Source of the DNA: Ruegeria halocynthiae
Lineage (GTDB): Bacteria; Pseudomonadota; Alphaproteobacteria; Rhodobacterales; Rhodobacteraceae
Assembly (NCBI RefSeq): GCF_000743705.1
Contig: NZ_JQEZ01000003.1
Span: forward strand, 295,593-359,592
DNA length: 64,000 nucleotides
Direction: 5' to 3'
Shown: positions 6,507 to 58,084 of the stretch, piece by piece
How positions within the stretch are numbered: position 1 is the stretch's first letter
Layout of the letters: every line of letters begins with the position of its first letter
Translations under genes and position numbers: made by a program
The notes under the pieces: generated by a model
Told to the model about the DNA's origin: nothing
What the model saw: only the letters and a program-made list of their open reading frames with translations
Databases searched by the model: none

Positions 6507-6518
6507 CGGGAGGATACG

Positions 6519-7541: not shown

Positions 7542-7556
7542 CCGAAGGGATCAACA

Positions 7557-8153: not shown

Positions 8154-8165
8154 GAGGTAGGCATT

Positions 8166-9198: not shown

Positions 9199-9235
9199 TA
9201 CGGCAACAAACAAACCCAGCACCAGGAATCCGAAT

Positions 9236-10627
9236 ATGAAGGTCGCTCAAAACGGCAATGTGTCGTTCTGGTACGCCGAACTTGGCGGCCCGCCAAAGCC
9301 GCGCGCGCCCCTGCCCGGAGACCGCGAGGTTGATGTCTGTATCATCGGAGCCGGATTCACCGGGTTATGGACCGCATGGTACCTGAAACAGGCTGATCCG
9401 GACGTGTCCGTGGCTGTCGTCGAACGTGAATTCGCCGGGTTCGGGGCCTCGGGGCGAAACGGAGGTTTCCTGACCGGGGCCTTCCCCTGGGCTCGTGATC
9501 GTTACCTGCAACACGGACATACCCGCGAGGGTGTGATCGCACTGGAACGCACTCTGCGCGGCACGGTTGACGAGGTGATCGCGGTTGCTGATGCGCAAGG
9601 CATCGACGCGGGCATCCATCGCACCGACGAGCTGTTCGTTGCCTGCACGCAATCGCAATTGGCCCGGATCAAGGCCGATCATGCAAACGCCATGCGTTGG
9701 CAGGTTCCACCCGAACGCCTGACCCTGATCGGGGCCCGCGAGGTTGCCGACCGCGTTCGGGTTCACAACGCATTGGGGGCCATGGCCATACACGGTGTGG
9801 CCCGTGTGCAGCCTGCCAAGCTGGTTCGCGGTCTGGCTGATGCGGTGGAACGCGCAGGTGTCGCGATTTACGAAAAGACCACTGTGCAGCGCTATGCCAA
9901 GGGCCGCGTTGACACCGACCGGGGCACGATCCGCGCCTCGCGTATCATCCGCGCGACCGAAGGATATACGGCGGGCTTTCCGGGTGAAAGCCGAACCTGG
10001 CTTGCGATGAACAGCGCCCAGATCGTGACCGAACCGGTGCCGGAGGCCATCTGGGATCAGATCGGCTGGCGCAATGGTGAACTTTTGGCGGATGCCGCGC
10101 ATACGATCTGTTATGCGCAACGCACGGCGGACAATCGGATCGCAATGGGCGGACGCGGAGTACCATATCGTTTTGGAAACGCGACCGACAAAGCCGGGGA
10201 AACGCAAGAGACAACCGTTCGAAGCCTGCACGCCATCCTGCACCGGTTGCTGCCGCAAGCAGCCCGGTTAAAGCTGGATCATGCCTGGTGCGGCGTCATG
10301 GGCGTGCCCCGGGACTGGTGCGCCAGCGTCGGGTTCGATCCGGCGACCGGGATTGGCCATGCTGGCGGTTATGTGGGCGTCGGGGTTTCGACCTCAAACC
10401 TCGCGGGTCAGACACTGGCCGATCTGGCATTGGGTCGGAAAACCGAGCTTACGGGCCTGCCATGGGTAAACCACACGGTCCGCAAATGGGAGCCCGAGCC
10501 CCTGCGCTGGCTCGGGGTTCAGGGCATGTACGGGCTCTATTCCATCGCGGATCGGATTGAAGCGCGCGGTCAAACTGCGGACACCTCTCGTCTGGCCCAA
10601 TTGGCCAATCTGCTGACAGGTCGGTGA
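9236..10627 (+). CDS. FAD-dependent amine oxidase, DAO family (PuuB-like)
   Basis: 463 residues. The Rossmann FAD motif CIIGAGFTGLWTAWYL is at ~35-50, followed by an acidic residue in VVEREFAGFGASGRNGG (~61-77), typical for the D-amino acid oxidase family and for gamma-glutamylputrescine oxidase and related enzymes. The C-terminal GHAGGYVGVGVSTSNLAGQTL is the second FAD-contact segment. It would oxidise a primary or secondary amine to an imine/aldehyde with H2O2 release. Last gene of the transporter-nitrile hydratase operon (37 bp after the accessory gene). Its aldehyde product would suit the dehydrogenase in the divergent operon. Confidence 0.85.
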   Translation: MKVAQNGNVSFWYAELGGPPKPRAPLPGDREVDVCIIGAGFTGLWTAWYLKQADPDVSVAVVEREFAGFGASGRNGGFLTGAFPWARDRYLQHGHTREGVIALERTLRGTVDEVIAVADAQGIDAGIHRTDELFVACTQSQLARIKADHANAMRWQVPPERLTLIGAREVADRVRVHNALGAMAIHGVARVQPAKLVRGLADAVERAGVAIYEKTTVQRYAKGRVDTDRGTIRASRIIRATEGYTAGFPGESRTWLAMNSAQIVTEPVPEAIWDQIGWRNGELLADAAHTICYAQRTADNRIAMGGRGVPYRFGNATDKAGETQETTVRSLHAILHRLLPQAARLKLDHAWCGVMGVPRDWCASVGFDPATGIGHAGGYVGVGVSTSNLAGQTLADLALGRKTELTGLPWVNHTVRKWEPEPLRWLGVQGMYGLYSIADRIEARGQTADTSRLAQLANLLTGR

Positions 10628-10869
10628 CATATTGCAAGGGGCTATGGCTGATGAAGTACCGATGCGGCCTCAGAATAAGAACGAGCGGTTCAGCGGGGCG
10701 GTGTCCGATTGAACGCTAGACAACTCGATCCTGAAGGAAGCTTCAACGGGAACTTCTGAGCATCGTTCGCCGCCGGGCTGGTATTGACCACGTTTTTAGC
10801 CAACTGACCGCCGGTGACTGCCGGGTTTTATTGTCGATCGCGCAAACAATGCACTCTTGCGCGCGAGAT
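10628..10869. other. Intergenic spacer without recognisable gene
   Basis: 242 bp between convergent genes. No open frame resembles a known protein. CGCGCAA (10839-10845) and TTGCGCG (10857-10863) could form a 7-bp hairpin past the amidohydrolase stop, without a T-run on either strand. The several short broken frames could be debris of an older insertion, which I could not identify. Confidence 0.3.
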
Positions 10870-11751
10870 CTACTTTCTTTGTCGGTATGCTCTCTTTGCT
10901 GTTGCAAAGTGCAAGTCATCCCTGTCTTTAGCGGTCAATCTAGAAAAGAGGTCCCGATATGCTGACCATACTGAGGCATAGGTCGACGTTGGTTTCTCGA
11001 CCGGGAAATTACTACCCAGCATGCATCGCTTCGGACCGAACGCGTCCAATAGACTACCGATCAGTGGCCTGATGCCGTCGACGTCCCAATGTGGATCCGC
11101 TTGGGATAGGCCCGAAATCTTCATGAATGTGTTAGGCAGCGCAGCAAGCGCGTTGATGCCATCCAGCCATATTTGCAACTCACCATCGTCACCCGGCACC
11201 GGTGACCCCATATGGTCGATGATAACGGGTGTATTCGGGTGGTCTGCAAGAAACGCGGCGAACTGACTGAGTTGAGAATGCCAACAGGTCAGATCGAAAG
11301 ATGCATTGACGTTGGCAAGCGCGGCGAAACCGCGACGCCATGCAGGTTTTTTCAGTAAATCCTCCTCAAGAATATCTGGGCGCGGGGAGGGTTTTGCCCA
11401 CCAGAGCTCTTGTCGGATACCAACGAAAACGTCGTGGCGCGCGTGTCGCTTAAGAATGGTTTCAACGTTTGGTTGGGAAAGATCTGCATAGGCGACAAAA
11501 CCTGCAATCCGATCCCCGTTGGGATGCGTATCGACGGTTCTTTGAATCCACGCAGTCTCTTCGACCGGGTCATTCGCGTGATCGACTTCGGCTTGCACAA
11601 CTATGAACGCGGTTTCGGCTGCTCCTTCCTCTGCAATTGCATCATCTAACTGATAAGCATTGGGCAGCGCGGTAAACGAACCGCTCTGACGCCACGAGTA
11701 GTCAAAACGTGCGGTGTCCCATAAGTGAAGATGTGCATCTATCAGCTGCAT
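10870..11751 (-). CDS. Amidohydrolase family protein (amidohydro_2), upstream region replaced by IS66
   Basis: 293 residues from the ATG at 11751, a full length for this TIM-barrel metal-hydrolase family (L-fuconolactonase and 2-pyrone-4,6-dicarboxylate lactonase relatives). The N-terminal metal motif is DAHLHLWD (residues 5-12), the central TCWHSQLSQF and IIDHMGSP segments carry the strand-4/5 histidines, and CMLGSNFPVE supplies the C-terminal metal Asp region (here SNFP rather than SDFP/SDWP, so Asn replaces the usual Asp). The IS66 terminal repeat ends one base before the ATG, so the native promoter and ribosome-binding site are gone; expression would depend on element readthrough. Substrate unknown, probably a lactone. 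Confidence 0.8.
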   Translation of the reverse strand: MQLIDAHLHLWDTARFDYSWRQSGSFTALPNAYQLDDAIAEEGAAETAFIVVQAEVDHANDPVEETAWIQRTVDTHPNGDRIAGFVAYADLSQPNVETILKRHARHDVFVGIRQELWWAKPSPRPDILEEDLLKKPAWRRGFAALANVNASFDLTCWHSQLSQFAAFLADHPNTPVIIDHMGSPVPGDDGELQIWLDGINALAALPNTFMKISGLSQADPHWDVDGIRPLIGSLLDAFGPKRCMLGSNFPVEKPTSTYASVWSAYRDLFSRLTAKDRDDLHFATAKRAYRQRK

Positions 11752-13323
11752 CGTAAGCGGCGTCTGAAGACCGTCTGCTATTGGCTTGAAGTTCCACGGG
11801 AGCAGATCGTCGATCTTGTTTTTGGGGTGACCAGTTGCGATGGCTTCGAGCGTGGCCTTGAGATATGCGAAGGGTTCGACACCGTTGATTTTGGCGGTTT
11901 CGATCAGAGAGGCTATGCGACCCCAGGCTTTGCCGCCCTCATCGTGCCCCGCAAACAATGCGTTCTTTCTGTTCAGGGCAATTGGCCTGATTAAATTTTC
12001 GACCTGGTTGCTATCGATCTCGACGCACCCGTCATTGAGGAAGGTTTGCAGGTCATCCCAGTGACGGTGGATATATGCCAGTTTTTCGCCGAGGCGAGAC
12101 TTGGCCGAGACGCGGATGCGCTGAGTTTGCAGCCAGTCGCCGAAGGCAGCGACCAGGGGCGCAGATCGGGTCTTGCGTGCCGAGAGACGCTGGCCGGGGG
12201 ATGTGCCTCGGATGTCTTTTTCGATAGCATAGATTTCGGCGATCTGGCGCAGGCCTTCGGCGGCGATCTCGGATTTGTCGCGGTCGTGGATTTCCTTGAG
12301 CTTGCGGCGGGCGTGCGCCCAGCAATGGGCCACGACGATGGGCTCGCCGCCCTTGCGCGTGGTGCGGGTCAGACGATTGTATCCGGGGTAGCCATCCAGT
12401 TGCAGGATGCCGTCGAAGCCTGTGAGGAACTTTTCCGCATTCTCGCCCCGCCGGTCGGGGGCGTAGAAGAACACGACCCCCGGCGGGTCATCGCCGCCCC
12501 AATTGCGATCATCGCGGGCCAAAGCCCAGAGATATCCGGTTTTGGTCTTCTTGCGGCCGGGGTCGAGGATCGGGGCTGTCGTTTCGTCCATGAAGAGCTT
12601 CGTGGAGGTCTTCAGGTGCTCGGCCAGCCGGTCCACGACCGGGCCCAGATGGAAGGCTGCCTTGCCGACCCAATCCGCCAGAGTGGATCGGTGAATGTCG
12701 ATGCCTGTACGACCCAGGATTTGGGATTGCCTGTAAAGCGGACAGTGATCGGCATATTTTGACACCAACACATGCGCGATGGTGCCCTCTGTTGGCAGCG
12801 CTCTTTCGATCAGGCGTGCTGGTGCCAGGGCCTGGGTCACGCCATCGGTGCAATGGCGGCAGGCGTATTTTGGACGCACGGTGACAATCACGCGCAGTTT
12901 GGCGGGCACGATATCCAGCCGCTCGGATCGGTCTTCGCCGATCTTGTGCATCTCCCCGCACCCGCAGGGGCAGGTCAGGCTATCGGGTTCGACAATCTGC
13001 TCGATGCGTTCCAGATGCTCTGGCAGGGTGCCCAGATTGCGGCGCGCCACCTGTTTGCGTTTTGGCCCATCTTCGCCGGGGGCTTGGGTGTCTTTACGCT
13101 CCTGAACCTCGGCGACAGCAACTTCGAGTTCTTCGAACAGGAGCTGGCGTTCGTCCTCATCCAGCTTCTCGGACTTCTTGCCATGCACCGCATGGTTCAG
13201 TTCCGCCACCAGATGCTCAAGCCGTTTGTTGACCTCCTTGAGTTCCGCGACCTGCGCCTCGAACAGCACCCGGAACTCGGGCGGCAGCAGGCTCAAATCA
13301 AGGTCTTTGGCAGCGTCGGACAT
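10870..13323 (-). CDS. tnpC: IS66 TnpC transposase reading in frame into an amidohydrolase (chimeric 817-residue frame)
   Basis: Residues 1-~520 are a complete IS66 transposase: coiled N-terminal segment (~20-75), zinc-finger Cys cluster CPCGCGEMH (~117-125) with YACRHC downstream, catalytic DDE pattern with FMDETTAP, LQLDGYPGYN and CVEIDSNQVEN, and the C-terminal IS66 segment ending LLPWNFKP. The usual stop is missing: the frame crosses the terminal repeat as IADGLQTPLT and enters a full amidohydrolase at its own Met (codon at 11751). The transposase is therefore C-terminally extended by ~293 residues. Either the extended protein is made or the amidohydrolase is read from its own ATG. The transposase core has no stop or frameshift and may be functional. 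Confidence 0.85.
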   Translation of the reverse strand: MSDAAKDLDLSLLPPEFRVLFEAQVAELKEVNKRLEHLVAELNHAVHGKKSEKLDEDERQLLFEELEVAVAEVQERKDTQAPGEDGPKRKQVARRNLGTLPEHLERIEQIVEPDSLTCPCGCGEMHKIGEDRSERLDIVPAKLRVIVTVRPKYACRHCTDGVTQALAPARLIERALPTEGTIAHVLVSKYADHCPLYRQSQILGRTGIDIHRSTLADWVGKAAFHLGPVVDRLAEHLKTSTKLFMDETTAPILDPGRKKTKTGYLWALARDDRNWGGDDPPGVVFFYAPDRRGENAEKFLTGFDGILQLDGYPGYNRLTRTTRKGGEPIVVAHCWAHARRKLKEIHDRDKSEIAAEGLRQIAEIYAIEKDIRGTSPGQRLSARKTRSAPLVAAFGDWLQTQRIRVSAKSRLGEKLAYIHRHWDDLQTFLNDGCVEIDSNQVENLIRPIALNRKNALFAGHDEGGKAWGRIASLIETAKINGVEPFAYLKATLEAIATGHPKNKIDDLLPWNFKPIADGLQTPLTMQLIDAHLHLWDTARFDYSWRQSGSFTALPNAYQLDDAIAEEGAAETAFIVVQAEVDHANDPVEETAWIQRTVDTHPNGDRIAGFVAYADLSQPNVETILKRHARHDVFVGIRQELWWAKPSPRPDILEEDLLKKPAWRRGFAALANVNASFDLTCWHSQLSQFAAFLADHPNTPVIIDHMGSPVPGDDGELQIWLDGINALAALPNTFMKISGLSQADPHWDVDGIRPLIGSLLDAFGPKRCMLGSNFPVEKPTSTYASVWSAYRDLFSRLTAKDRDDLHFATAKRAYRQRK
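11753..11778. repeat. IS66 terminal inverted repeat, tnpC side
   Basis: Begins GTAAGCGGCGTCTGAAGACC. Lies inside the extended TnpC frame and one base from the amidohydrolase ATG. Confidence 0.75.
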
Positions 13324-14373: not shown

Positions 14374-14841
14374 TTAGTTTACGGCCTTGGCGTCAACCAC
14401 GTCCTTTTCGATGGCCTTGGACGAGGAAATCTCGATCCGGCGCGGTTTCAGGGCCTCGGGGACCTCGCGCTTGAGGTCGATGTTCAGCATGCCGTTCTCA
14501 TGGCTCGCGCCGGTGACGCGGACATGGTCGGCCAAGGCAAAGCGGCGCTCGAATGCGCGGGTGGCGATGCCGCGGTGCAGATAGCTGCGCTCTGTGTCCT
14601 CGGCGGCTTTCTTGCCAGCGACGATCAGGGCGTTTTCCTTGACTTCGACCGTCAGGTCATCTTCCGAAAATCCGGCGACAGCGACCGAGATGCGATAGGT
14701 GTCGACATCGGTTTTTTCGATGTTATAGGGCGGATAGCTGGGCTGGGCCACGTCGTTGGTCAACACGCGATCCATCATGTCGGCGATCTGGTCAAAGCCA
14801 ATGGTGGCGCGGTGCAGCGGTGCAAAATCGAATGTACGCAT
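14374..14841 (-). CDS. Hsp20/IbpA family small heat-shock protein
   Basis: 155 residues from the ATG at 14841, with GAGG nine bases upstream; an ATG at 14856 is also in frame but lacks a site. N-terminal MRTFDFAPLHRATIGFD and YPPYNIEKTDVDTYRISVAVAGF are typical of the alphaproteobacterial IbpA/HspA class. The alpha-crystallin domain spans ~35-130, with the conserved GMLNIDLKREVPE near its end and a C-terminal RRIEI (I-x-I-type) anchor motif. ATP-independent holdase chaperone in the cytoplasm. Preceded by an RpoH-type promoter and followed by a strong terminator, so transcribed alone under heat shock. Confidence 0.93.
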   Translation of the reverse strand: MRTFDFAPLHRATIGFDQIADMMDRVLTNDVAQPSYPPYNIEKTDVDTYRISVAVAGFSEDDLTVEVKENALIVAGKKAAEDTERSYLHRGIATRAFERRFALADHVRVTGASHENGMLNIDLKREVPEALKPRRIEISSSKAIEKDVVDAKAVN

Positions 14842-14939
14842 GTGTTGTATCCTCATGTCTGAGCGATCAGTGTTTTGCCCTCCGTTCGGACGGGCGGTGG
14901 AATATGCCAGGCCCCGTTTGCGGCGACCCGGTACAATTC

Positions 14940-14968
14940 ACATGGGTAGCTGTTTGGCCGAGTTCAAG
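14940..14968 (-). promoter_or_regulatory. RpoH (sigma-32) heat-shock promoter of the Hsp20 gene
   Basis: On the minus strand CTTG (14968-14965) is followed after 18 bases by CCCATGT (14946-14940). This matches the alphaproteobacterial RpoH consensus CTTG-N17/18-CYTAT-T closely. It lies ~100 bp before the Hsp20 ATG, and its -35 element overlaps the last codons of the upstream protease gene. Confidence 0.75.
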
Positions 14969-15779
14969 ACCCGCCGGAGGAGATGAATTTCGCGCCGGAA
15001 CTGGATTTCCCGGACCCCACCTGCAACCGGCGGATGGTGGCCTTGGGTTTTGGCGCGTCACGGCGCAGATCAGCCTTGAGGTCGGCCACGATGCCGGTCA
15101 GCTCCATGCCGAATCCGACCTTCTGACGCCCATCGGTTCCAACTGCGGATACGACGGACAAAATCTGCCATCGCGGGCCGTTTCGCGCCAATAGGGCAGA
15201 GCCTGAAGACCCAAATGTGATATCGCAGTTAAAGGTGATCAGCCCCTGTCGCCGCTGCAAAATGCGGCAGGACCGTTCCCGGGTGATCGCCTCGGCCCGG
15301 CCGCGCCCGTATGAGGCAATGCTGACCTCATTCCCGGCCACACGCCCGCTGTGCAGGGCAAAGGGATCGGCCACGGAATAAGGTATCGGCTGTTCTAGCC
15401 GCATCAGGGCGACATCAATGCGGACGGCCTCGGCCGACAGTTCCGCATGGCGGGTGTAATCCGGATGGACCGCGATCTGGGCGACCTTACGCTCAGCCAA
15501 TGCCTTGCCGTTGCTCAGCCCGGCCCGGAATGTCACCGCGCTGGGGACGTAGGTCTTGCCCGTTTTTTCGTCAATCGCGCAATGGGCAGCGGTCAGAACC
15601 AGATCCTGGGCAATCAATGTGCCGGTGCAGAACCCCTGGTCGCCGATATCCAGCCGGCCGATGGCCTCCCAACCGTACAGGTCCTCGCGGTCTGTCAGCT
15701 TGCGCTTGTTGCTTTGGGCATGGGACGCAGTCGACAGGATCGACAGGCACATGAGGATATACAGAAAACCCCGGATCAT
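14964..15779 (-). CDS. Secreted trypsin-like serine protease (first of a tandem pair)
   Basis: 271 residues with a Sec signal peptide (MIRGFLYILMCLSILSTASHA). Chymotrypsin-fold triad: His66 in LTAAHC, Asp122 in IDVALMRLE, Ser192 in FGSSGSALL. CTGTLIAQDLVLTAAHC is the typical N-terminal half. The active-site Ser is preceded by Ser rather than Asp (GSSGS instead of GDSGG), as in bacterial V8/trypsin-like branches. Periplasmic or exported. Its ATG overlaps the stop of the paralogous upstream gene by four bases, so the two are co-translated. Confidence 0.88.
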   Translation of the reverse strand: MIRGFLYILMCLSILSTASHAQSNKRKLTDREDLYGWEAIGRLDIGDQGFCTGTLIAQDLVLTAAHCAIDEKTGKTYVPSAVTFRAGLSNGKALAERKVAQIAVHPDYTRHAELSAEAVRIDVALMRLEQPIPYSVADPFALHSGRVAGNEVSIASYGRGRAEAITRERSCRILQRRQGLITFNCDITFGSSGSALLARNGPRWQILSVVSAVGTDGRQKVGFGMELTGIVADLKADLRRDAPKPKATIRRLQVGSGKSSSGAKFISSGGS

Positions 15780-43192: not shown

Positions 43193-44011
43193 TCAATCGC
43201 CAAGTTTGGCGTGGACCTCATCCAGATCAATTTCGCCAATGGGCATCTTATTGGCCGGGTCTTCGAAATCATATTTGAACAGATCAAAGTCCTGTTTGTA
43301 GATTTCATAAACCAGATGCATCGACAGATCGTCAAAATAGTCCTCAACCGGGTGCAACCGCTTGGGTCCGTGACCCTCAGATTCGTTAAAGCGGGGGATT
43401 TCCGACAGACTCACCGCGTGCTGCGTGTCCAGATTGTCCAGAACACCCTGCATTCCGTCGTTGAACTTTTCCGTCCAGAATATACGGTCATACTGCCCGC
43501 CATTCACAATGAATGTGGACACATGGCCAGACATGGCCGACCAGTGAATATCCGGGTCCATCGGCCTGCGCCACCGGATGGTATCGCGCGCAAACAGCAA
43601 GAAACGGCGAAAGCTGGCGATCTGGTCGAATTCACCCTTGCCGTCGTCGCCTCCGACCTCGATCCCGTAGTTATAGGCAAGCGTCGGAACCAGATTGCCC
43701 CGGTATCGTTTGCCATTGCGCTGAATTCCGCAAATCTTATCAAAGAACGAGCTGAGGATACGGGTGTACGGGTTGCGCACACAGGTAAAGGAATAAGACG
43801 CGTGATTGCGGACGTTGCCAGAGATCATGCTCTGGCTGCTGTCAAAGGCCCATTTGTGCATCCCGTCTTTCGCATCATGGATATCGCCGTCAAAGAACCG
43901 TCCATGATCCGAATAATACATGATCTGCCCGATCGTCGAGCAGGCACATTTTGGTACAACACGGTAAACCATGCTTTCGCTCTCGGTCATCCATGTACCG
44001 GGAAATCCCAT
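43193..44011 (-). CDS. Sulfotransferase family protein (carbohydrate sulfotransferase type)
   Basis: 272 residues from the ATG at 44011, which has an AGGAGG site; the longer frame to 44077 lacks one. PAPS-binding loops: VYRVVPKCACSTIGQIMYY (5-prime phosphosulfate loop, ~15-33) and YSFTCVRNPYTRILSSFFDKI (3-prime phosphate site, ~72-92). Transfers sulfate from PAPS to a glycan or similar acceptor. Divergent from a glycosyltransferase gene 143 bp away; both probably build a sulfated surface glycan (inference). Confidence 0.85.
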   Translation of the reverse strand: MGFPGTWMTESESMVYRVVPKCACSTIGQIMYYSDHGRFFDGDIHDAKDGMHKWAFDSSQSMISGNVRNHASYSFTCVRNPYTRILSSFFDKICGIQRNGKRYRGNLVPTLAYNYGIEVGGDDGKGEFDQIASFRRFLLFARDTIRWRRPMDPDIHWSAMSGHVSTFIVNGGQYDRIFWTEKFNDGMQGVLDNLDTQHAVSLSEIPRFNESEGHGPKRLHPVEDYFDDLSMHLVYEIYKQDFDLFKYDFEDPANKMPIGEIDLDEVHAKLGD

Positions 44012-44154
44012 CTGCTGTGCCTCCTTTGCTGGTCCGGTCTCAAAATGACGCGCCAGCATTTGACACCAAAAAACCAAAAATATTCTGTTTATTCAATCGC
44101 TCATCCTCAGTATCACGGTTGGAAACGGGCAGAAATGGAAATCGTAGACCCAAA

Positions 44155-45732
44155 ATGGCAAAGATCGCCTATATTTTACTGTGCCACAAAGACCCTGATG
44201 CAATCATTGCGCAGGCGGAACAGCTGACCGCTGTAGGGGATTGCATTGCGATCCACTTTGACGCGCGGGCCAGCGCCGTGGCCTATGCGCGTATTCGCGA
44301 GGCGCTGAAAGACAATCCGAATGTTGCTTTTGCGGCCCAGCGCGTCAAATGCGGCTGGGGTGCCTGGTCATTGGTTCAGGCGACTTTGAATGCCCTGACA
44401 GCCGCCGTCGAAACCTTTCCGCGCGTGACACATTTCTACATGCTGTCCGGTGATTGCATGGCAATCAAGACGGCCGAATACACCCATCATTTCCTTGATG
44501 AAAACGACAAGGATTTCATTGAAAGCCACGATTTTTTCGAAAGCAACTGGATCAAGACCGGTATGAAAGAGGACCGGCTGATCTATCGGCATCATTTCAA
44601 TGAACGCACGCAAAGTCGACGGTTTTACACCTCGTATGAATTGCAGAAGCGGTTTGGGCTGACGCGGCAAATTCCGGCAGACATTCAGGTCATGATCGGC
44701 AGCCAGTGGTGGTGTCTGCGCCGCCGCACGGTCGAGATGATTCTGGACTTTCTGCAACAGCGCCCGGACGTGGTCCGGTTTTTTTCGACCACCTGGATTC
44801 CGGACGAGACTTTTTTTCAGACCCTGGTGCGCCATCTGATCCCCAAGCAAGAGATCGAGAACCGCACGCCCACCTTCCTGATGTTCTCGGATTACGGGAT
44901 GCCGGTGACGTTCTACAACGACCATTATGACATGTTGCTGGGGCAGGACTATCTGTTCGCCCGCAAGATCAGCCCCGAGGCCCATGAGCTGAAGGACCGG
45001 CTGGGCAAGCTCTATGCGGCTGAAGGGGTCGAGTTCCAGATTTCGGGCGAGGGCCGCAACCTTTACGGATTTCTGACCGGACGCGGCCGCGTTGGCCGAC
45101 GCCATTCGCAACGGTTCTGGGAGGCGGGCAATACGCTTGGCCCGGACCGCGAAATCTATCTTGTGGTGTGCAAAAAATGGCACGTGGCCAAGCGTCTGGT
45201 GGATCAGATCGTGTCGGAAACGGACATTCCCTGCGTCGAATACCTGTTCAACGAAGAAGAAACCGCCCTGCCCGATCTTGGCGGCATTGAAACGACTTTG
45301 ATCAAGCGATCGCGACACAGGCGCGCCGTTGTGCGGATGCTGTTCGACAGCTTCGATACGGACAAGCTGGTGATCTGTGTCGACCCGTCCAGTCTGGATA
45401 TCATCCAGGATTTCTGCGCTGATCAGGCCAAGGCCCACGTGCTTGAGATCGAATGCGAGTATACCGACGATTACCTGATCGGGCACGCCCGGCGCGTCGG
45501 CCTGGCCGGAGAGCACAGCCCGAAAGAAAGCGTGGCGCATCTGATTCCTGCCCTGAAAAACTCTCTGACCCATGAATCCGAACAAATTCGGGAGGCCGGA
45601 TTTGACGGGTACTTGCGTATCCGGGAAACCAGCCCACGGTCCGAGAATGAGGCCGCAGTGGCCGAATTTCTGGACGTCTCGCAAGACAAGGCGCAGGCCG
45701 TGATGCGACTGGACTATCTGTTTGCGGATTGA
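44155..45732 (+). CDS. Core-2/I-branching-type beta-glycosyltransferase with C-terminal DUF5928-like domain
   Basis: 525 residues from the ATG at 44155. GT14-like N-terminal half (~1-260): IAYILLCHKDPDAIIAQAEQL, CIAIHFDARAS, AYTHHF-type acceptor region and MIGSQWWCLRRRTVEMIL with WIPDETFFQTLV supplying the DE-F motif. The C-terminal ~270 residues (~255-525, LFARKISPEAHELKDRLGKLY onward) match the roseobacter-specific extension, DUF5928. Cytoplasmic, no signal peptide. Probable surface polysaccharide synthesis with the neighbouring sulfotransferase. Confidence 0.83.
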   Translation: MAKIAYILLCHKDPDAIIAQAEQLTAVGDCIAIHFDARASAVAYARIREALKDNPNVAFAAQRVKCGWGAWSLVQATLNALTAAVETFPRVTHFYMLSGDCMAIKTAEYTHHFLDENDKDFIESHDFFESNWIKTGMKEDRLIYRHHFNERTQSRRFYTSYELQKRFGLTRQIPADIQVMIGSQWWCLRRRTVEMILDFLQQRPDVVRFFSTTWIPDETFFQTLVRHLIPKQEIENRTPTFLMFSDYGMPVTFYNDHYDMLLGQDYLFARKISPEAHELKDRLGKLYAAEGVEFQISGEGRNLYGFLTGRGRVGRRHSQRFWEAGNTLGPDREIYLVVCKKWHVAKRLVDQIVSETDIPCVEYLFNEEETALPDLGGIETTLIKRSRHRRAVVRMLFDSFDTDKLVICVDPSSLDIIQDFCADQAKAHVLEIECEYTDDYLIGHARRVGLAGEHSPKESVAHLIPALKNSLTHESEQIREAGFDGYLRIRETSPRSENEAAVAEFLDVSQDKAQAVMRLDYLFAD

Positions 45733-50065: not shown

Positions 50066-53000
50066 GTGCCTAAGGATCCGATTGAGAACTGCATTTCCTA
50101 TACTCCAACCGACAGTGAATGGGCGCTGATACTCGAGATACTGCCCTCGGACGATCCGGAGGCCATCAGAACGCATTTCGAATGTTTCGAGGTGACCGAG
50201 AACACGGCCCTGCCCTCGGGTGGCATGTATGTGGTGCTGGACGGCATTGCGCAACTGCGTCAGGACGGGACGGTCCTGGCCACAGCCGACAGGGGCGATT
50301 ACTTCTACGAAGAACATCTTGAGATTTTCGACATTCCCGTCAGCCTTGAGGCACTGGCCACGCCCGGCACCAAACTGGCCTATCTGTCCAGCAACCAGTG
50401 GTTCGATATCCCGACCAATATCCGCGAGGCTTGTTATGCCACCCTGTTTGGCGATCTGGTCAGCGTGCATTTGCAGAACTTTCAGCAGCCGATCAATTGT
50501 TGCAGCGTGACAGCGGCCGCGCTGAGCATGTCGGCGCTTGGGTTCAGCTGCGAGGTCAACGACATCTTCCGCGAATGCGCCCTGCCGACCTCATTCGTGG
50601 TGAATGACGGCATTTCACTGGGCGAGCTCTACGACGTCGCCTGCACCTTCATCCACACGCAGGGTTTGCGCGACCGGGTACAGGTTCAGGCGTATTTCAT
50701 GGATGCGGCCACGACCTCTGTTCCGCTGCTGCTTGAGGCGATCGACGAATCCAACCGGCTGGGCGGGGATAACGACATTCTGGTGGCGAATTTTCAGGTC
50801 GGCGTGGCCCATGGCAAACCCACCATGCCCGGCGGCCATTTCGCCATCATCGCCAAATGCAACCCCAGCACCGGGTTGGTGCATATGATGGATGTACACC
50901 CGGAAAAATACGGCAAGCTGTGGGTCACCACCATCGACAGGCTGTGGGCCGGGATGTCGGATCGCGACGGAACCTCGATGCGGTCGCGGGGTATCCTGCG
51001 GTTTTCGGCGCGCGAGGCGGTGAAGACCAATCTGCAGACGTTGCAGCAGGACTGCAATTATGTCGACAGCACGCGCTATCTGGCCAAGGACCCCAAAAAG
51101 CGCCGCAACCTGTTCCGGCGGGCCAGCCCGAACATGAACTCGCTGGGGGTGCTGGCCGAAAGCCTTGCGATTCTTGGCGATGAACAAGTCGACGAAGACA
51201 AGCTGCTGATTGCGACGCAGACCAATTTCACCGATGCGCTCAGCCGGGTATCCACCGCGCGGGAAATGCACGCGATGGCGCAGCGGTACCTCAGCCAGAC
51301 GCCGACTGTCCATCTGGGCAGCGCCTTCCGCAGCTATGGCAAACGCCCAGACACGGATGGTAAAACGCCTCAGGCGTGGTTCCACGATCAATTGCGCGGG
51401 CTGAACACGCATAAAGACCGGCACCTGATGATCAACATCGACTTTAACCGCGTGCTGGGGTTCGAGGTCATCCGATCTCCGGAAAACGTGTTTCGCGAAA
51501 CCGCCTTGCTGGAAGAGTTCTGGTGCCTGTGTATCGCCTATGACGCGGAAACCGATCTGGTGACCGTGGTGGATATGAGCCCTGCAACCTCGCAGGTCTG
51601 GCAGGCCCCGCGCGGGCATATTTTCCGGGGTCTGCGCGACCTGAAGGCCCCGGCCATGCTGGTGATCGAAGAACGCGAACCACCCGAAGATCCAACCGAT
51701 GTCGCCCGCATTATCGAGACCAACCCATTGGTTCTGTTTTATGCGGATGAGGACCCGTGGTCTTACATGCTGCGCAGTATTCTGGCCAATATCGGCATCA
51801 CTCGCATCAAACTGGTCGATGTCGAAGGCCCCGGGGCCAACGTGATGAAGATGCGCCGGCAACTGAACGTGCTGACCGGAAAGGAAACCGCGCCCTACCT
51901 GTTCTTTCAGGGCGAATGCCTGGGCCGACGCAGCGATATCGTCGACATGATTCTGGAAGGCAGCCTGCAAGAACGTGTCCGCGAGGCTGGTTTGCCGGTT
52001 CTGCTGCGCCATCAGTCGCCCAGTCTGGACAAGAACATCTTTGGCTATCCAAAGGGCGGGTTGACCGACGCCCCCACCGAAAAGCGCAATGTGCTGCTGT
52101 GTGCCTGCGGGTCATCGGCGGCGGACAAGGTGCCCGAACTGGTCGAGCGGATCACCGAGGCCGGGCACAACGTCAAACTGATCCCATCCGTTTCGGCCGA
52201 GCGGTTCTTTCGCGATTTCGGGGCCGAGCGGATCGAAAAATGTATCTCGCACCATGATTATTACCGCGACGATGACGAATGGAATTTCCGGTATATCGAA
52301 TTCGGAATGCCCCTGCGCGCCTCGCATCTTGCGCTGTGCGATTGGGCCGATTGCGTGATTGTGGCACCGGTGACCTGCAACACGATGGGCAAGATCGCCA
52401 ACGGGATTGCCGACAACCTGCTGACCTCGGTTTTTGTCGCCTGGCAGTACCGGAACAAGCCGGTGATCCTTTGCCCGGCCTGCAACACCAACATGTGGAA
52501 CAACGTCACCACCCAGAACAATGTCGAAAAACTGCGCGATCTGGGTATTGATCTGGTAGGCCCGCGCAAGGGGCGGCTGTCCAACGGCATGATGGGGATC
52601 GGCATGATGGCCACCCCGGATCAGATCATGGAAGTTCTGGACGAAGCCTTCGAAGAACTGGCCGATCAGGAGCACAACATCTGCAAATGGGCGCAAGAGG
52701 CCGCCGCCGCAGACAGTTTCGCGCAGTGGAGCCGGGTGCTTCAGGCCATCGACACCGGCATGGCCGGGATCGACATCGTGGACGACAGCAATGGCGACAC
52801 GCTGCTGCATTATGCAGCAGGCGGCGAGGGCGAGCTGCACGAGAACGGGCAGGATTTTGGAAAGCCCGATCTTGAGGCCGCGCAGGCGCTGATCGACCGT
52901 GGCATCAACGTCAACGCCACCAATGACCATGGCTTTACCAGCCTGCATGTGGCGGTGATGAACAACTCGGTCGAGATGGTGAAAACCCTGCTGGCCGCCG

Positions 53001-53644
53001 ACGGGATTGACGCCAGCGCCTGCATTCACTTCCTGCAAAACGCCAAAGACGTCACAGTCTCGGCTGAGATACAGGCGATGCTTGAGGGCTGGGCCAACAC
53101 CCACACCCTGACCGAGGCAGACGACAACGAAGACTGCCTGATCGAGGATCGGGAACGGACCTATCTCTACTTCACATACGGATCGCTGAAAAGGGGGTTT
53201 CCCAATCACGACGCCCTTGCCGAAGTGCTGGATGATTTCGTAGGCGAGGCCGTGACCCGGCAGCCCATGCCTTTGATCGTCCCGCACGAGCCGTATTGCG
53301 ACAATCCCAATTGCGGCTTCCTGCACCGGATGGCCACGCTGGTCGACCAGAAAGGGCGCGGCAAACCGGTGTGGGGCGAGGTCTATCGCGTCTCGTCCAG
53401 CGGGTTGAAGGAACTGGATAGATTAGAGGGCTATCACGGCCCCGGATCGCCCGAGAATGTCTATGTGCGCAAGCGGATCAATGTGGTCATGGACGGTATC
53501 AAAAAGCCCGCCTATGTCTATGTGATCGCGCAGCCGACCAAATATCTGGATCAGTGGGAACAGGGTGTTTCGGGGATAGTCGCGAATTACACGCAGGACA
53601 TGTCCATAGGCACACCAAAACCGGGCTACCAGCCGCCCACTTAA
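50066..53644 (+). CDS. Phytochelatin-synthase-like / glutaredoxin-like / HFCD flavoprotein / ankyrin / gamma-glutamylcyclotransferase fusion protein
   Basis: 1192 residues, GTG start with AGGGGGG upstream, no signal peptide. Visible domains: ~40-138 CRP-like beta roll (MYVVLDGIAQLRQDGTVLA), lacking the cAMP Arg; ~139-315 phytochelatin-synthase fold with Cys146, His258 and Asp276, the His-Asp spacing of 18 equal to plant PCS1; ~385-536 a second copy with Phe485 at the His position; ~553-643 glutaredoxin fold with cis-Pro (TAPYLFF) but no active-site Cys; ~674-862 HFCD/Hal3 flavoprotein (His754, APVTCNTMGKIANG, ACNTNMWNN); ~905-1008 ankyrin repeats; ~1031-1180 gamma-glutamylcyclotransferase (YGSLKRG, Glu1121 in LDRLEGY). 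All catalytic domains act on gamma-glutamyl or cysteinyl compounds. Proposed role, inferred: stepwise processing of glutathione-like peptides. Ends overlapping the convergent channel gene by four bases. Confidence 0.88.
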   Translation: MPKDPIENCISYTPTDSEWALILEILPSDDPEAIRTHFECFEVTENTALPSGGMYVVLDGIAQLRQDGTVLATADRGDYFYEEHLEIFDIPVSLEALATPGTKLAYLSSNQWFDIPTNIREACYATLFGDLVSVHLQNFQQPINCCSVTAAALSMSALGFSCEVNDIFRECALPTSFVVNDGISLGELYDVACTFIHTQGLRDRVQVQAYFMDAATTSVPLLLEAIDESNRLGGDNDILVANFQVGVAHGKPTMPGGHFAIIAKCNPSTGLVHMMDVHPEKYGKLWVTTIDRLWAGMSDRDGTSMRSRGILRFSAREAVKTNLQTLQQDCNYVDSTRYLAKDPKKRRNLFRRASPNMNSLGVLAESLAILGDEQVDEDKLLIATQTNFTDALSRVSTAREMHAMAQRYLSQTPTVHLGSAFRSYGKRPDTDGKTPQAWFHDQLRGLNTHKDRHLMINIDFNRVLGFEVIRSPENVFRETALLEEFWCLCIAYDAETDLVTVVDMSPATSQVWQAPRGHIFRGLRDLKAPAMLVIEEREPPEDPTDVARIIETNPLVLFYADEDPWSYMLRSILANIGITRIKLVDVEGPGANVMKMRRQLNVLTGKETAPYLFFQGECLGRRSDIVDMILEGSLQERVREAGLPVLLRHQSPSLDKNIFGYPKGGLTDAPTEKRNVLLCACGSSAADKVPELVERITEAGHNVKLIPSVSAERFFRDFGAERIEKCISHHDYYRDDDEWNFRYIEFGMPLRASHLALCDWADCVIVAPVTCNTMGKIANGIADNLLTSVFVAWQYRNKPVILCPACNTNMWNNVTTQNNVEKLRDLGIDLVGPRKGRLSNGMMGIGMMATPDQIMEVLDEAFEELADQEHNICKWAQEAAAADSFAQWSRVLQAIDTGMAGIDIVDDSNGDTLLHYAAGGEGELHENGQDFGKPDLEAAQALIDRGINVNATNDHGFTSLHVAVMNNSVEMVKTLLAADGIDASACIHFLQNAKDVTVSAEIQAMLEGWANTHTLTEADDNEDCLIEDRERTYLYFTYGSLKRGFPNHDALAEVLDDFVGEAVTRQPMPLIVPHEPYCDNPNCGFLHRMATLVDQKGRGKPVWGEVYRVSSSGLKELDRLEGYHGPGSPENVYVRKRINVVMDGIKKPAYVYVIAQPTKYLDQWEQGVSGIVANYTQDMSIGTPKPGYQPPT

Positions 53645-54804
53645 TTCTGTCTTTCGATCACGGTCTCATCCTCTGGCCCGGCCTTGAGGCTGAGGTTATA
53701 GGCCGTGATCCCCACCATGCACAGCAGGACAAAAGGCCAGAACGCGGCCTTTGGGATCAGGTTGTCCCGGTAATGGATGACCCACAGCGACGACGACGCC
53801 TCGGACGCAAACAGATAGGTGTTCACCGATACGGCCAGCAGCAGGAAGTACATCAGGAAAAAGAACGATTCCATATAGATCACCGGCGACCCGGCAAAGC
53901 CTTCGCGCAGTTGTACGTGCGCCAGCAGGATCACGAAGAACAGGACGGAACAGGTGCCGATCACACTGGAGGTGTTGAAATCGTGCCGTTCGACCAGATT
54001 GGGTTTGCGGGTGACGGTCATCACCGCCCCAAACAACAGCATCGTCACAACGATCAGGGGGATCATGTGGACGATGAAAGCGTTCCCGAAGTTGCGCTTG
54101 ATGACAAAGTTGTAATGCAGCTCGGGCAGGTTAGTCTGAAACTCGTTCTCGCTGATGCCCAGCGTGGTATCCAGATCGGACAGGCGATAATCGAAATAGG
54201 TATTCTCACGCTCCCAGGTGCCCATGACGATGCGGTTGTCGATACCAAAAATATCGGCGGGACCGGTGGCGGGATAAGACGCGAAATCGGGGATCAGCGC
54301 CACATCAACGTCGAACTCACCGGGCCAGAACCGGACCCAGACGGTTTTATGGTCGAAGGGATAGCTGGTGTAGTCAAAGCTTTGCCGCAGGGTCTGTTCG
54401 AAATACCAGCCGATCAGCTCGGATCCATCCTGATCCATCCGATACGCCTCGTGTATCAGGCCGCTCGCGGCGTCGACAGCTTCGGGCAGGATGAACCCCA
54501 CCTCACCGCTGGCGGGTTTGATGGCGTCATGCACGCCGTCCTCATAGTGCTGCCAGACATACCCCGTGATCCGCACGTCACTGGCACCTGTAAAGCTGAA
54601 GGATTTGATGAAGATGCCGGTTTTCACCCGATGCTCCGGCACATTGCCCAGCTTTTGCAAATAGTCGTCGACCGAAGCCTGATCAGGCAGCTGCGTCGGG
54701 TCTTCTTCGAAATGGTTCAGCGCCACCCAGAGATTGAACAGCAGAACCGCCAGGATCAGCGTAACCGCGCCAGAGATCAGCCAAACTTGCTTTTCGATGG
54801 TCAT
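53641..54804 (-). CDS. Pentameric ligand-gated ion channel-like membrane protein
   Basis: 387 residues from the ATG at 54804. A signal anchor (~7-28) precedes a ~210-residue beta-rich extracytoplasmic domain containing SYPFDHKTVWVRF (~147-159), which matches the F/YPFD pro-loop motif of bacterial Cys-loop receptors such as GLIC. Four helices follow in the pLGIC spacing: ~242-264, ~278-298, ~308-332 and ~354-374, with NFVIKRNFGNAFIVHMIPL resembling the pre-TM1/TM1 junction. No disulfide loop, as in prokaryotic members. Starts 16 bp after the adenylate-cyclase-type gene, so the two form an operon. Family assignment is by motif and topology only. Confidence 0.68.
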   Translation of the reverse strand: MTIEKQVWLISGAVTLILAVLLFNLWVALNHFEEDPTQLPDQASVDDYLQKLGNVPEHRVKTGIFIKSFSFTGASDVRITGYVWQHYEDGVHDAIKPASGEVGFILPEAVDAASGLIHEAYRMDQDGSELIGWYFEQTLRQSFDYTSYPFDHKTVWVRFWPGEFDVDVALIPDFASYPATGPADIFGIDNRIVMGTWERENTYFDYRLSDLDTTLGISENEFQTNLPELHYNFVIKRNFGNAFIVHMIPLIVVTMLLFGAVMTVTRKPNLVERHDFNTSSVIGTCSVLFFVILLAHVQLREGFAGSPVIYMESFFFLMYFLLLAVSVNTYLFASEASSSLWVIHYRDNLIPKAAFWPFVLLCMVGITAYNLSLKAGPEDETVIERQN

Positions 54805-54820: not shown

Positions 54821-57800
54821 CTAGCCCAGCCGCCCGACCAACGACTGTGTGATGCCCATCTGGTCAAAGCGGGCACCCAGCGGCCCGAACCCTTCGTGCG
54901 CGGCCATAGGAATACCCCAGGCACCGCATTCGGCCAGAACCCGGGTGTGCTGAATGGACAGATCGACCATCGGCAGCGGCTCCTCCGCGGTGAATGCCGC
55001 CAGCGCATCCGCATAAGCGGTGGCCCTGTCCCATTCCTGTCGCGCCAGCATGACGGCACTGGCATCGGGGTAGAAATGCAGGTGGCTGTGGCCAACGCAG
55101 CCTTCGGCGATGATCTCGGCCCCCAGTTTCAGATGGCGGTCCTGCGCGTCAGGGTCTGTTTCGGCCATCGCCAGCGCCGACAGCGCCTTGGGCCCCACGA
55201 AGTTCCGGCCATGTTCCAGCGCGATATCAACCGCGCGCTGGCCAGTTTCGCGAGCCTGCCGGGACTGCCCCGTGTAGACCTGCGTGCGGGCCAGATGTTC
55301 CAGCGCCTGCGCCTCAAGCCTTTTGGCACTGACGCGATGCGCGATTTCGGCGGACAGGGAAAATGTCTCCAGCGCCTGATCCAGCTCACCCAGAAAGGTA
55401 TGCGCCACCCCCAGACAGGTTTGCGCAACACATTCGGGCACAAAGGCAAAGTATTTCTGCGACACCTCGATCGCCTCTTGCGCGTCCAGCTTGCCCTGCG
55501 CCACGTCCCCTGCATAGCTGCGCGCCACGCTGAGGTTATGCAGATTGGCGGCCAGATCGCGGACCAGCCCCTTTTCCCGCGCCCGCTCGACCGCCTGCGT
55601 GTAAAACCCGGCGGCGGTCTGCATCGTGGCGTTCATGAAATTGGCGTCCCCAAACCCGCTGAGCGCCCCAACCTCCAGCCGCGCCGATTCCAGTTTGCGC
55701 GCCAGCGTCAGGGCGCGTTCGTTGCTTTTCAGGGCATCCTCGACCCGGCCCAGCGGGAAATACACATTGCCACGCACATAGTTGATCTGCGCGATATCAC
55801 GGTCCGATCCGCATCGCTCCGCTGCGGCCTCGGCCTGTTCAAGGCTTTCCAGCGCATCCCCATACAGGCTGGCCTGACGGGCGGCCTGCGCCAGCCCGAT
55901 ATGGGCGCGGCAGACCTGTTCATCGGCCTCGGCCAGTTCGGCGGCCTCTTTGAATTCGCGCAGGGCGTCGTCGGACAGGCCCTGCAACCGGTGCGTTTCA
56001 CCCCGGGCACAGAACAGATCGAACCGCACGCCCGACGGCGACGGCAGTTCAAGCGCCCGTTCGATCAGTGGGCTGGCCTCATCAAACTGAAAGGCCTGAA
56101 CCAGTTTTTCGGCAGCCTCCAGATAGGCCTGCGCGGCATTGGTGGCCCCGGCCCGGTCCAGATGCTGCGCCCGCAGGGTGGCATCGCGGTCTTCGAACCA
56201 TTTCGCCGCCTGCCGGTGCAGCCGCGCGCGTTCCGATTTCACCAGCGTCGCATAAGACCCATCACGGATCAGCGCATGGGCGAACATCAGGTCGGCCCCC
56301 GCCTCGCGGATCAGGGCCGAGCGGATCAGGGTCGACGTATCCAGATGCCCCTCGCCCAGCAGGAAATTCAGCACCTCCGGAGAGAACCTCTGCCCCAGTA
56401 CCGAGGCCGCCTGAATCGCCGTCCGGCTGGCCCGGTCCAACGCATCCAGCCGCGATTGCACGATGCCCTGAATGCTGCCAGGCACCGATTCACGTTTTAA
56501 CACGTCGATATTGCGCAGAAGCTGTTCCAGAAACAGCGGATTGCCCCCGGCGCGCTGCACGCAAGCGTCCAGCAGCTCGGGGTCGATGCCGGTGAATTCC
56601 TCGACCAGTTTGCGGGCCTGATCGTCACCCATCGGTGCCAGTTCCAGCTTTGAGATCAGCGCCCCATCGGTGCCTGACTGCCATTCACGGTTGATCGGGT
56701 CGCCTTCGACGCGGCTGGTCATCAACAGCACACAAGGCAGATCCCGCGTGGTGGCCGCAATATGGGCGCAGGCGGTCAGAATTTCGGGCGCGGCCCAGTG
56801 GATATCCTCAATCTGGATCAACAGCGGGGCGTCGCGGCTGCGTGCAGCGATCAGCTCATCAATCACCTGACGCCGACCGCGCAGACGGGTTGCATTGTCC
56901 ATGACCGCATAGACCTCGGCCAGGCCGGGGTCCTGCTCCAGCTCCAGCAGCGCGCTCAGATGGGCGGCGTTCGACGGCGATACCCAGCCCTTGCCCACCG
57001 CCTGTTGCGCTTTTGCGGCGCAGGTGGCGGCGTCATCTGTGGGTTCCAACCCCAGAATGCTACGGGCGACGGATTGGATCGCGGAATGCCCCTCGCGCGC
57101 GCCGAAATCCATGACCACGCCGTTATGGATCGAATAGCCCAGACCGGCGGCCATTTCGGCCACCTGCTCGGACAGGTGGGTCTTGCCGATCCCCGGCTCG
57201 CCCAGAACGATGTGAACCTCACCCTTGCCGTGCTGCCGGCAGCGGTCGAAGGTGGCTGAAAACAACGACATCTCGCGTTCGCGCCCGACAAAGCGGTGCC
57301 TGCGCGATCGGATGTTGCGCGCCATCCGGTGCAGCCGCCACAGCTCGACCGGGTTCGCCAGCCCCTTGATCGCCTTGGTGCCGACGGATTCGCCCACAAA
57401 CAATGGCCCCAGCGCGCGCTGAATGTCATGCGATACCAGCGTCTCACCCGGTGCCGCCATATCGGTGATGCGCGAGGCCAGGTTCACCCCGTCGCCGGTC
57501 ACCGTGTATTCCGTATGCGCCTGACTGCCCGTCGTGCTGGCAATCACCTGCCCCGAGGCAATGCCCACATGGCATGAAACGGGCGGGTTCAGGCCGGGCA
57601 GAACCGCATGGATTTCCAGCGCCGCCCGCGCGGCGCGTTCGGTGTCATTGGTATGAGAGATCGGCGCGCCAAACACCGCCATCACCGCGTCACCGATATG
57701 CTTGTCGATCCGGCCGCCGAATTTCTCGACCACGTGATCCACTTTCTTGAAGAACTCATTGAGCAGTGCGTGCATGTCTTCGGCATCCAGCTCGCTCGTC

Positions 57801-58084
57801 AGACGGGTGAAACCGGTCAGATCGGCGAACATGACCGTGACCTGCCGCTTGGCGGGTTCCAACGGCGTCTGCGATTCATAGGCCGGAACGGTTTCAACTG
57901 TGTCCAGCTCGGATATCGCGCGCAGCAGCCGTCGGCGGTCGCCGACTGCGCTCACTCCGATTTCGATCAGGTCTTCGCCCGTCAAATCGGGCAGAATTGC
58001 GAAATCAATTTTGTTTTCCAAAAAGGCTTGCGCGTAGTCAGATAGCCCAAGTGCGCTCAGCCAGTCCCTAAGGTCCTGAGACAT
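54821..58084 (-). CDS. SAM domain - class III adenylate cyclase - AAA/STAND ATPase - TPR protein
   Basis: 1087 residues. SAM domain ~1-62 (DWLSALGLSDYAQAFLEN); cyclase ~78-255 with metal Asp88 (FADLTGFT), Asp132 and Lys128 (DKHIGDAV), and TGDGVNLASR (~197-205) giving the transition-state Asn201 and Arg205; the Lys and Thr196 in the purine pocket favour ATP. Walker A GEPGIGKT at 295-302 and a Walker B-like LLIQIEDIHWA (~425-435) define the ATPase. From ~610 to the end, TPR-type helical repeats. This is the SAM/CHD-AAA-TPR architecture common in Rhodobacterales and rhizobia. Makes cAMP in response to an unknown signal. Operon with the channel-like gene; the leader hairpin at 58092-58114 abuts its ribosome-binding site. 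Confidence 0.93.
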   Translation of the reverse strand: MSQDLRDWLSALGLSDYAQAFLENKIDFAILPDLTGEDLIEIGVSAVGDRRRLLRAISELDTVETVPAYESQTPLEPAKRQVTVMFADLTGFTRLTSELDAEDMHALLNEFFKKVDHVVEKFGGRIDKHIGDAVMAVFGAPISHTNDTERAARAALEIHAVLPGLNPPVSCHVGIASGQVIASTTGSQAHTEYTVTGDGVNLASRITDMAAPGETLVSHDIQRALGPLFVGESVGTKAIKGLANPVELWRLHRMARNIRSRRHRFVGREREMSLFSATFDRCRQHGKGEVHIVLGEPGIGKTHLSEQVAEMAAGLGYSIHNGVVMDFGAREGHSAIQSVARSILGLEPTDDAATCAAKAQQAVGKGWVSPSNAAHLSALLELEQDPGLAEVYAVMDNATRLRGRRQVIDELIAARSRDAPLLIQIEDIHWAAPEILTACAHIAATTRDLPCVLLMTSRVEGDPINREWQSGTDGALISKLELAPMGDDQARKLVEEFTGIDPELLDACVQRAGGNPLFLEQLLRNIDVLKRESVPGSIQGIVQSRLDALDRASRTAIQAASVLGQRFSPEVLNFLLGEGHLDTSTLIRSALIREAGADLMFAHALIRDGSYATLVKSERARLHRQAAKWFEDRDATLRAQHLDRAGATNAAQAYLEAAEKLVQAFQFDEASPLIERALELPSPSGVRFDLFCARGETHRLQGLSDDALREFKEAAELAEADEQVCRAHIGLAQAARQASLYGDALESLEQAEAAAERCGSDRDIAQINYVRGNVYFPLGRVEDALKSNERALTLARKLESARLEVGALSGFGDANFMNATMQTAAGFYTQAVERAREKGLVRDLAANLHNLSVARSYAGDVAQGKLDAQEAIEVSQKYFAFVPECVAQTCLGVAHTFLGELDQALETFSLSAEIAHRVSAKRLEAQALEHLARTQVYTGQSRQARETGQRAVDIALEHGRNFVGPKALSALAMAETDPDAQDRHLKLGAEIIAEGCVGHSHLHFYPDASAVMLARQEWDRATAYADALAAFTAEEPLPMVDLSIQHTRVLAECGAWGIPMAAHEGFGPLGARFDQMGITQSLVGRLG

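Follow-up and report, generated by a model that had tools for sequence, protein, structure and literature searches.

A roseobacter fusion protein with phytochelatin-synthase-like, HFCD and GGACT domains as a possible signal-controlled glutathione-processing enzyme

Architecture and conservation of the fusion protein

What would a bacterium gain from a single polypeptide that carries a phytochelatin-synthase-like (PCS-like) peptidase, an HFCD flavoprotein domain and a gamma-glutamyl cyclotransferase? The question is raised by a gene of Ruegeria halocynthiae, which lies in a stretch of 64,000 nucleotides (contig NZ_JQEZ01000003.1, positions 295,593 to 359,592; hereafter the window) at 50066..53644 on the plus strand, has a GTG start and, with the stop codon included in these coordinates, encodes a fusion protein of 1192 amino acids (aa). 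We tentatively explain this protein as a signal-controlled, multi-domain glutathione-processing enzyme with a sensor of cyclic-nucleotide-binding (CNB) type, which works in a module together with a class III nucleotide cyclase. By combining a peptidase with a cysteine decarboxylase and a gamma-glutamyl-amine cyclotransferase, a single chain would provide a defined route out of glutathione and, if the product is an aminothiol, a new way of making one.

An earlier reading made from the letters alone (the sequence-only reading) had described a 1192-residue polypeptide, and this open reading frame (ORF) was confirmed and found to be conserved across relatives. Four of the domains that it named were recovered by Pfam above the curated cut-offs: Phytochelatin PF05023 at residues 140-309 (4.9e-9; 36.1 bits vs a cut-off of 24.9), Flavoprotein PF02441 at 675-857 (9e-28; 97.3 bits vs 22.7), ankyrin at 900-982 and GGACT PF06094 at 1035-1159 (1.2e-15). 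The list of domains had nevertheless overlooked a CNB-type domain at the N-terminus, and the phrase "five thiol/gamma-glutamyl chemistries" was an overstatement, as the second PCS copy and the glutaredoxin domain are devoid of catalytic residues. All the single domains belong to known superfamilies; for their assembly, no counterpart was recognised among the open-access papers listed, in agreement with the earlier remark that no protein of this architecture had been described.

Residue conservation was counted in an alignment of 44 rows, two of which are partial, made up of the window protein and 43 non-identical sequences. A search for related loci yielded matches to nearly the whole query at 37 of 39 (48-89% identity in the best segment), the remaining two being cut at the contig start, and the full-length fusion was present without an internal stop in 32 of 101 genomes, its own included; an annotation artefact or a chimeric assembly was excluded on these counts. 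The ratio of non-synonymous to synonymous substitution (dN/dS) was below 0.5 in every domain in all five pairs compared, and in each pair the first PCS-like domain (PCS1, 0.02-0.08) and the HFCD domain (0.01-0.09) had the lowest values. Because near-complete matches recur at so many loci and dN/dS is low throughout, the fusion is not a matter of chance.

Candidate catalytic sites

Judged by their residues, three active sites look intact, namely those of the PCS-like peptidase, the HFCD domain and the GGACT domain, all of which, like the domains described further below, are encoded on the plus strand. The PCS-like peptidase (residues 126-325, 50441..51040) was delimited by PF05023, Foldseek and the alignment columns. 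Its triad of Cys146 (codon 50501-50503), His258 (50837-50839) and Asp276 (50891-50893) occupies the positions given by the sequence-only reading, and no row that has a letter at these places departs from it (42/42, 43/43 and 43/43, respectively). An AlphaFold2 (AF2) model of residues 1-545, built from 23 alignment rows (pLDDT 81.7, pTM 0.81), resembles the phytochelatin synthase Alr0975 (2bu3_A, Foldseek E 7.2e-8, TMt 0.70). NsPCS converts glutathione to gamma-Glu-Cys according to PMC12065762. With NsPCS/Alr0975 (C83) the fusion thus shares the fold and the Cys/His/Asp triad, whereas identity in the structural alignment is about 20% and the fusion adds a degenerate copy together with CNB-type, glutaredoxin, HFCD, ankyrin and GGACT domains. 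At rank 20 of the Foldseek matches of the N-terminal model stood a 2026 entry, '22oc, P210 CD lyase' (E 9.6e-6).

The HFCD/PPC-decarboxylase-like flavoprotein domain (residues 670-870, 52073..52675) has AtHAL3a as its best solved relative (1.4e-31), followed by 1qzu, which we take to be human PPCDC, and 12 solved relatives were found, MrsD and EpiD included. His754, Asn807, Met810 and Trp811 are invariant in 44/44 rows, and the first three are the equivalents of AtHAL3a His90, Asn142 and Met145. For AtHAL3a, PMC9604783 assigns these residues to oxidation and decarboxylation and Cys175 to reduction of the enethiol. The domain differs from AtHAL3a/CoaC at the Cys175 place and at the Met of the PXMN motif, and it falls below all NCBIfam cut-offs, including those of the PPC decarboxylase equivalogs TIGR00521 (125.3 of 219.7) and TIGR02113 (97.1 of 261.4). 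A further difference is that a separate HFCD match, in a CoaBC-like frame of 406-439 aa, exists in the window genome and likewise in all 31 further genomes with the fusion, so that the HFCD domain of the fusion is not needed for coenzyme A (CoA). CoA biosynthesis was therefore excluded as its role.

The GGACT/AIG2-type gamma-glutamyl cyclotransferase domain (residues 1035-1159, 53168..53542) retains YGSL (1038-1041) and Glu1121 in 44/44 rows, the latter aligning with residue 82 of 3jub. PMC7022552 describes GGACT as acting on gamma-glutamylamines and names YGSL and Glu82. To these likenesses (YGSL, the catalytic Glu and a Pfam score above the cut-off) stand opposed its place as the C-terminal part of a fusion and an additional motif of Cys1078, Cys1083 and His1087, which is invariant in 44/44 rows and may form a metal site.

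Domains without catalytic residues

The second PCS-like copy (residues 335-537, 51068..51676) is without the Cys/His/Asp triad. Comparison of its profile with that of the first copy gave a weak match (hhalign E 0.0066 over 158 collinear columns, probability 5.8%; E 0.031 in the reverse run), and as a control comparison of the first copy with the CNB part gave E 0.011 across 8 columns, the value of 0.0066 is not strong alone. Its own profile matched no solved PCS in the PDB. In the AF2 model, however, its 13 helices and strands follow an order identical to that of the first copy. The degenerate copy proposed earlier is thus upheld by the missing triad and the repeated topology of the model, the sequence match being weak.

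For the next domain (residues 540-650, 51683..52015), the previously suggested glutaredoxin fold is backed by a 14-row sequence profile, whose search retrieved solved glutaredoxins at 1.9e-9, though the NCBIfam model GRX_euk (559-637, 2e-6, 27.9 bits) stays below its cut-off of 87.25. At the place of CPxC, which we take to be the glutaredoxin active-site motif, the window protein has DPWS (563-566) and the alignment D-[P/S]-W-S in 44/44 rows, with Asp563 and Ser566 each in 44/44. Both active-site cysteines being replaced in every row, an active dithiol glutaredoxin was excluded. The ankyrin repeats (residues 900-985, 52763..53020) were assigned by Pfam.

Residues 1-125 or so (50066..50440) probably form a CNB-type domain, as suggested by a profile search that matched the CNB domains of PKG and PKA (Plasmodium PKG at 4.3e-4) and by Foldseek, in which the N-terminal model matched CNB domains of PKG, PKA and the bacterial 3gyd (TMt 0.52). 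PF00027 gave no Pfam match in the window protein, and in the orthologue at locus L115 it reached 2.9e-5 and 24.4 bits, below the cut-off of 27.5. Glu82, at what we take to be the Glu position of the phosphate-binding cassette, is present in 42/42 rows.

The cyclase partner, gene order and spread

The gene setting, which the sequence-only reading had not considered, includes a cyclase gene and a probable ion channel gene. The cyclase (54821..58084, minus strand; 1087 aa with SAM, class III nucleotide cyclase, AAA and TPR parts) lies upstream of the channel gene at a distance of 16 bases. It accompanies the fusion gene at 33 of 40 loci (the 39 and the window). In roseobacters it is encoded on the strand opposite to that of the fusion gene, past the channel gene; elsewhere it stands in tandem, upstream of the fusion gene at L068 and L115 and downstream at L054. 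Of the 60 genomes G001-G060, one and the same set of 31 carries the fusion, the cyclase (at least 67% identity over its length) and the membrane protein. As the three genes are adjacent, this co-occurrence is not independent evidence of a partnership, for which the differing arrangements are the better evidence. In a bin labelled Roseovarius (L070 6274-9511) the cyclase gene is split into two frames of 776 and about 386 aa, owing to either a break or an assembly error.

Four of the 23 same-genus genomes without the module were inspected at the locus. Genome G041 (L104 10332-10682), which lacks all three genes, has, bounded by the same flanking genes, scraps of the cyclase (aa 230-280 and 584-620) and of the fusion (aa 669-702), which indicates that the block was lost; in G036 both flanks were found without any match to the module, and for G006 and G028 the left flank alone was seen in the fetched stretch. 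At L115 (G454), the cyclase (5087-8407) and the fusion (8444-12064) are in tandem and are followed by an MscS-type channel gene (PF00924, 12735-14447). Two 234-aa ORFs (4004-4705 and 14648-15349), closely similar by eye and presumably transposase-like, flank this module, and the stretch is possibly a mobile cassette.

To delineate the spread of the fusion, its N-terminal profile was searched in three samples. In the order sample it was near-complete in 16 of 390 genomes, its own included (frames of 1202-1339 aa), with one weak partial match besides; in the class sample (385 genomes) and the phylum sample (398 genomes) it matched its own genome and, in each, two weak partial matches only. Split or 'missing link' architectures were the target of this search, in which everything besides the near-complete matches was weak and partial. 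Carriers include Ruegeria, Seohaeicola, Roseibacterium, Roseovarius and bins labelled Rhodospirillaceae and SAR116; the fusion is conserved in roseobacters, in other Alphaproteobacteria and in two bins labelled Gammaproteobacteria. A quick tree (27 rows, midpoint root, long branches flagged) split into the Rhodobacteraceae-type rows and the remainder. Of the 50,697 phage records searched, 29 matched the fusion, and of the 72,556 plasmid records 62 did; in none did one place cover 80% of the query; the best 20 of the 29 and the best 20 of the 62 lay within residues 646-868, and viral_contigs gave 8 pattern matches and no relative. An origin as a phage or plasmid gene was accordingly downgraded.

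Proposed reaction route and alternative explanations

From the observed domain content, the retained and lost residues, the conservation and the gene partnership, we infer three reactions, their order, glutathione as the substrate and control by the cyclase. In the first, the PCS-like site (Cys146/His258/Asp276) would form a gamma-Glu-Cys acyl-enzyme on glutathione, free glycine and release gamma-Glu-Cys. In the second, the flavin mononucleotide (FMN)-dependent HFCD site (His754/Asn807/Met810) would oxidise and decarboxylate the newly exposed C-terminal Cys. As a Cys175 equivalent is missing, this site, if active, should stop at gamma-glutamyl-aminoethenethiol (minus 46), the product of oxidative decarboxylation; the earlier reading had assumed a loss of 46, with which this agrees. 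The enethiol might later be reduced to gamma-glutamyl-cysteamine by Cys806 or by glutathione bound to the cysteine-less glutaredoxin domain. In the third, the GGACT site would cyclise the gamma-glutamyl group, giving 5-oxoproline and a small aminothiol or a breakdown product. The order of peptidase, decarboxylase and cyclotransferase is chemically consistent, as decarboxylated gamma-Glu-Cys is a gamma-glutamylamine. The three-step logic of the sequence-only reading is thus in line with the retained catalytic residues and with the lowest dN/dS being that of PCS1 and HFCD, whereas direct formation of cysteamine is not predicted, given the missing Cys175 equivalent. The degenerate PCS and glutaredoxin domains are probably non-catalytic and serve to bind substrate or glutathione, a partner may be held by the ankyrin repeats, and activity may be coupled through the CNB domain to the product of the cyclase or to another ligand. 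Five open-access papers found to contain the name gamma-glutamyl-cysteamine deal with cystinosis and cystic fibrosis.

Several observations weigh against this explanation. The PXMNXXMW motif of HFCD proteins reads PACNTNMW (804-811) here, with Cys806 in 44/44 rows, and Asn840 stands in 44/44 rows at the place of AtHAL3a Cys175, the clamp and reducing Cys; with both replacements the decarboxylation may be altered or absent. The sequence of a PF06094 protein cannot reveal its substrate. In the CNB domain, the place that we take to be that of the phosphate-binding Arg holds Val, Met, Ile or Leu in 42/42 rows (Val92 in the window), so the domain may not bind cyclic AMP (cAMP), and its structural matches include trypanosome PKA subunits whose titles call them cAMP-independent. 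The cyclase is missing as a neighbour at 7 of the 40 loci (L056, L058, L062, L064, L066, L067 and L069), which belong to three bins labelled Rhodospirillaceae, one SAR116, two uncultured Alphaproteobacteria and one Halieaceae; some of these contigs stop at the fusion gene or close to it, and whole-genome searches of these seven genomes, whose completeness is not known, gave cyclase-domain matches only. The cyclase thus appears not always to be needed. In favour of the explanation, glutathione synthetase (PF02955) was matched in 7 of 8 genomes tested, although the family was also matched in 9 of 14 control genomes; the genome of L062, which gave no match, speaks against it.

In a rather unlikely alternative, the PCS-like site alone is catalytic and the HFCD, glutaredoxin, second PCS and GGACT domains are mainly binding or regulatory, making the protein a regulated glutathione hydrolase or a glutathione sensor. 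It accommodates the second PCS and glutaredoxin domains without catalytic residues, the HFCD domain deviating at two motif positions and the moonlighting of Hal3 proteins as regulators, as in yeast, mentioned in PMC9604783. It does not account for the invariance of His754, Asn807, Met810, Trp811, YGSL and Glu1121 in 44/44 rows, nor for constraint on the HFCD domain equal to that on PCS1, which would be unusual in a merely structural domain.

We consider it unlikely that the enzyme instead matures a peptide with a C-terminal Cys, ribosomal or not, in the manner of EpiD, MrsD or CypD, with the peptidase exposing the Cys. The peptide-cysteine decarboxylases EpiD and MrsD are not known to have a reducing Cys, which the HFCD domain lacks too, and both are among its 12 solved relatives; however, AtHAL3a and then 1qzu are the best of these, the NCBIfam model of CypD scored only 14.7 bits vs a cut-off of 215, and gamma-glutamyl substrates are what the PCS and GGACT domains suggest.

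Least probable is a Pycsar-like stress or anti-phage module, in which a cyclic nucleotide switches on the CNB-bearing effector and depletes glutathione: a cyclase gene near a gene for a CNB-type-domain protein follows the Pycsar logic, PADLOC PycC models recognise the cyclase domain (best 1.9e-18, by class III domain homology), the module is present in just 31 of 60 relatives and one copy lies between the two similar transposase-like ORFs of L115, yet class III cyclases generally should match PycC (same-genus genomes hold 7-13 matches each, 12 candidates scored), the fusion matches PADLOC in its ankyrin part alone (8.2e-5), the CNB domain lacks its Arg, purifying selection is strong, no phage or plasmid record covers 80% of the query in one place, and flanking genes common to many Ruegeria loci with one decayed remnant argue for loss rather than fast turnover. 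Pycsar effectors are of TIR or membrane types, whereas the effector part here is one of glutathione chemistry, the cyclase is of SAM/AAA/TPR build and there is no evidence of defence.

The neighbouring channel-like gene

Between the fusion and cyclase genes, tail to tail with the former, lies the gene of a 387-aa membrane protein (53641..54804, minus strand), a probable subunit of a pentameric ligand-gated ion channel (pLGIC). The assignment draws on an AF2 model of low confidence (pLDDT 50.7), for which the best 50 of 1215 Foldseek matches are all pLGICs (E 1e-10 to 2e-9, TMt 0.44-0.57), and on a YPFD stretch, presumably the Pro-loop signature, that is invariant in 15 rows. No Pfam match and no sequence match in the PDB were obtained. 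The model resembles the superfamily of ELIC, an amine-gated bacterial channel, but with no sequence-level match, and GLIC rather than ELIC is among the best 50 matches.

A crude ORF caller, which can miss copies hidden by longer overlapping ORFs, detected the protein at 28 of 40 loci. In the order sample, 15 of the 16 genomes with the fusion have it; a diverged form was found in three other genomes with no fusion or cyclase match within the 15 kb fetched. These diverged relatives, 38-41% identical, have other neighbours (L112 6871-7998, L113 7451-8593 and L114 7413-8564). One stop was marked inside the match or its stretch in G052, G058, G148, G428, G238 and G140.

It is a doubtful proposition, although one with consequences, that the three roseobacter genes form one circuit in which the enzyme, tuned by the CNB domain and cyclase, makes a cysteamine-like amine-thiol or glycine that gates the channel. 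Such a circuit would link glutathione status to ion flux and supply both a natural ligand and a physiological role for a bacterial channel of Cys-loop type, and if the product gates the channel, what naturally gates the bacterial relatives of nerve receptors, and what these do, would become directly testable. For ELIC, cysteamine is the strongest agonist at low concentration (half-maximal effective concentration, EC50, 0.365 mM) and alanine and glycine give no response, according to PMC3119659; by analogy, the lack of response to glycine is a caveat on the circuit. Loci L054, L068 and L115, which have the cyclase and the fusion and no such channel in the fetched stretch, also weigh against it. 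No description of the combination of fusion, cyclase and channel genes was found among the open-access papers listed.

Elsewhere in the window, 43951-45732 encodes a Core-2/I-branching domain with DUF5928, and all 23 same-genus genomes that lack the module have relatives of this protein at 71-89% identity.

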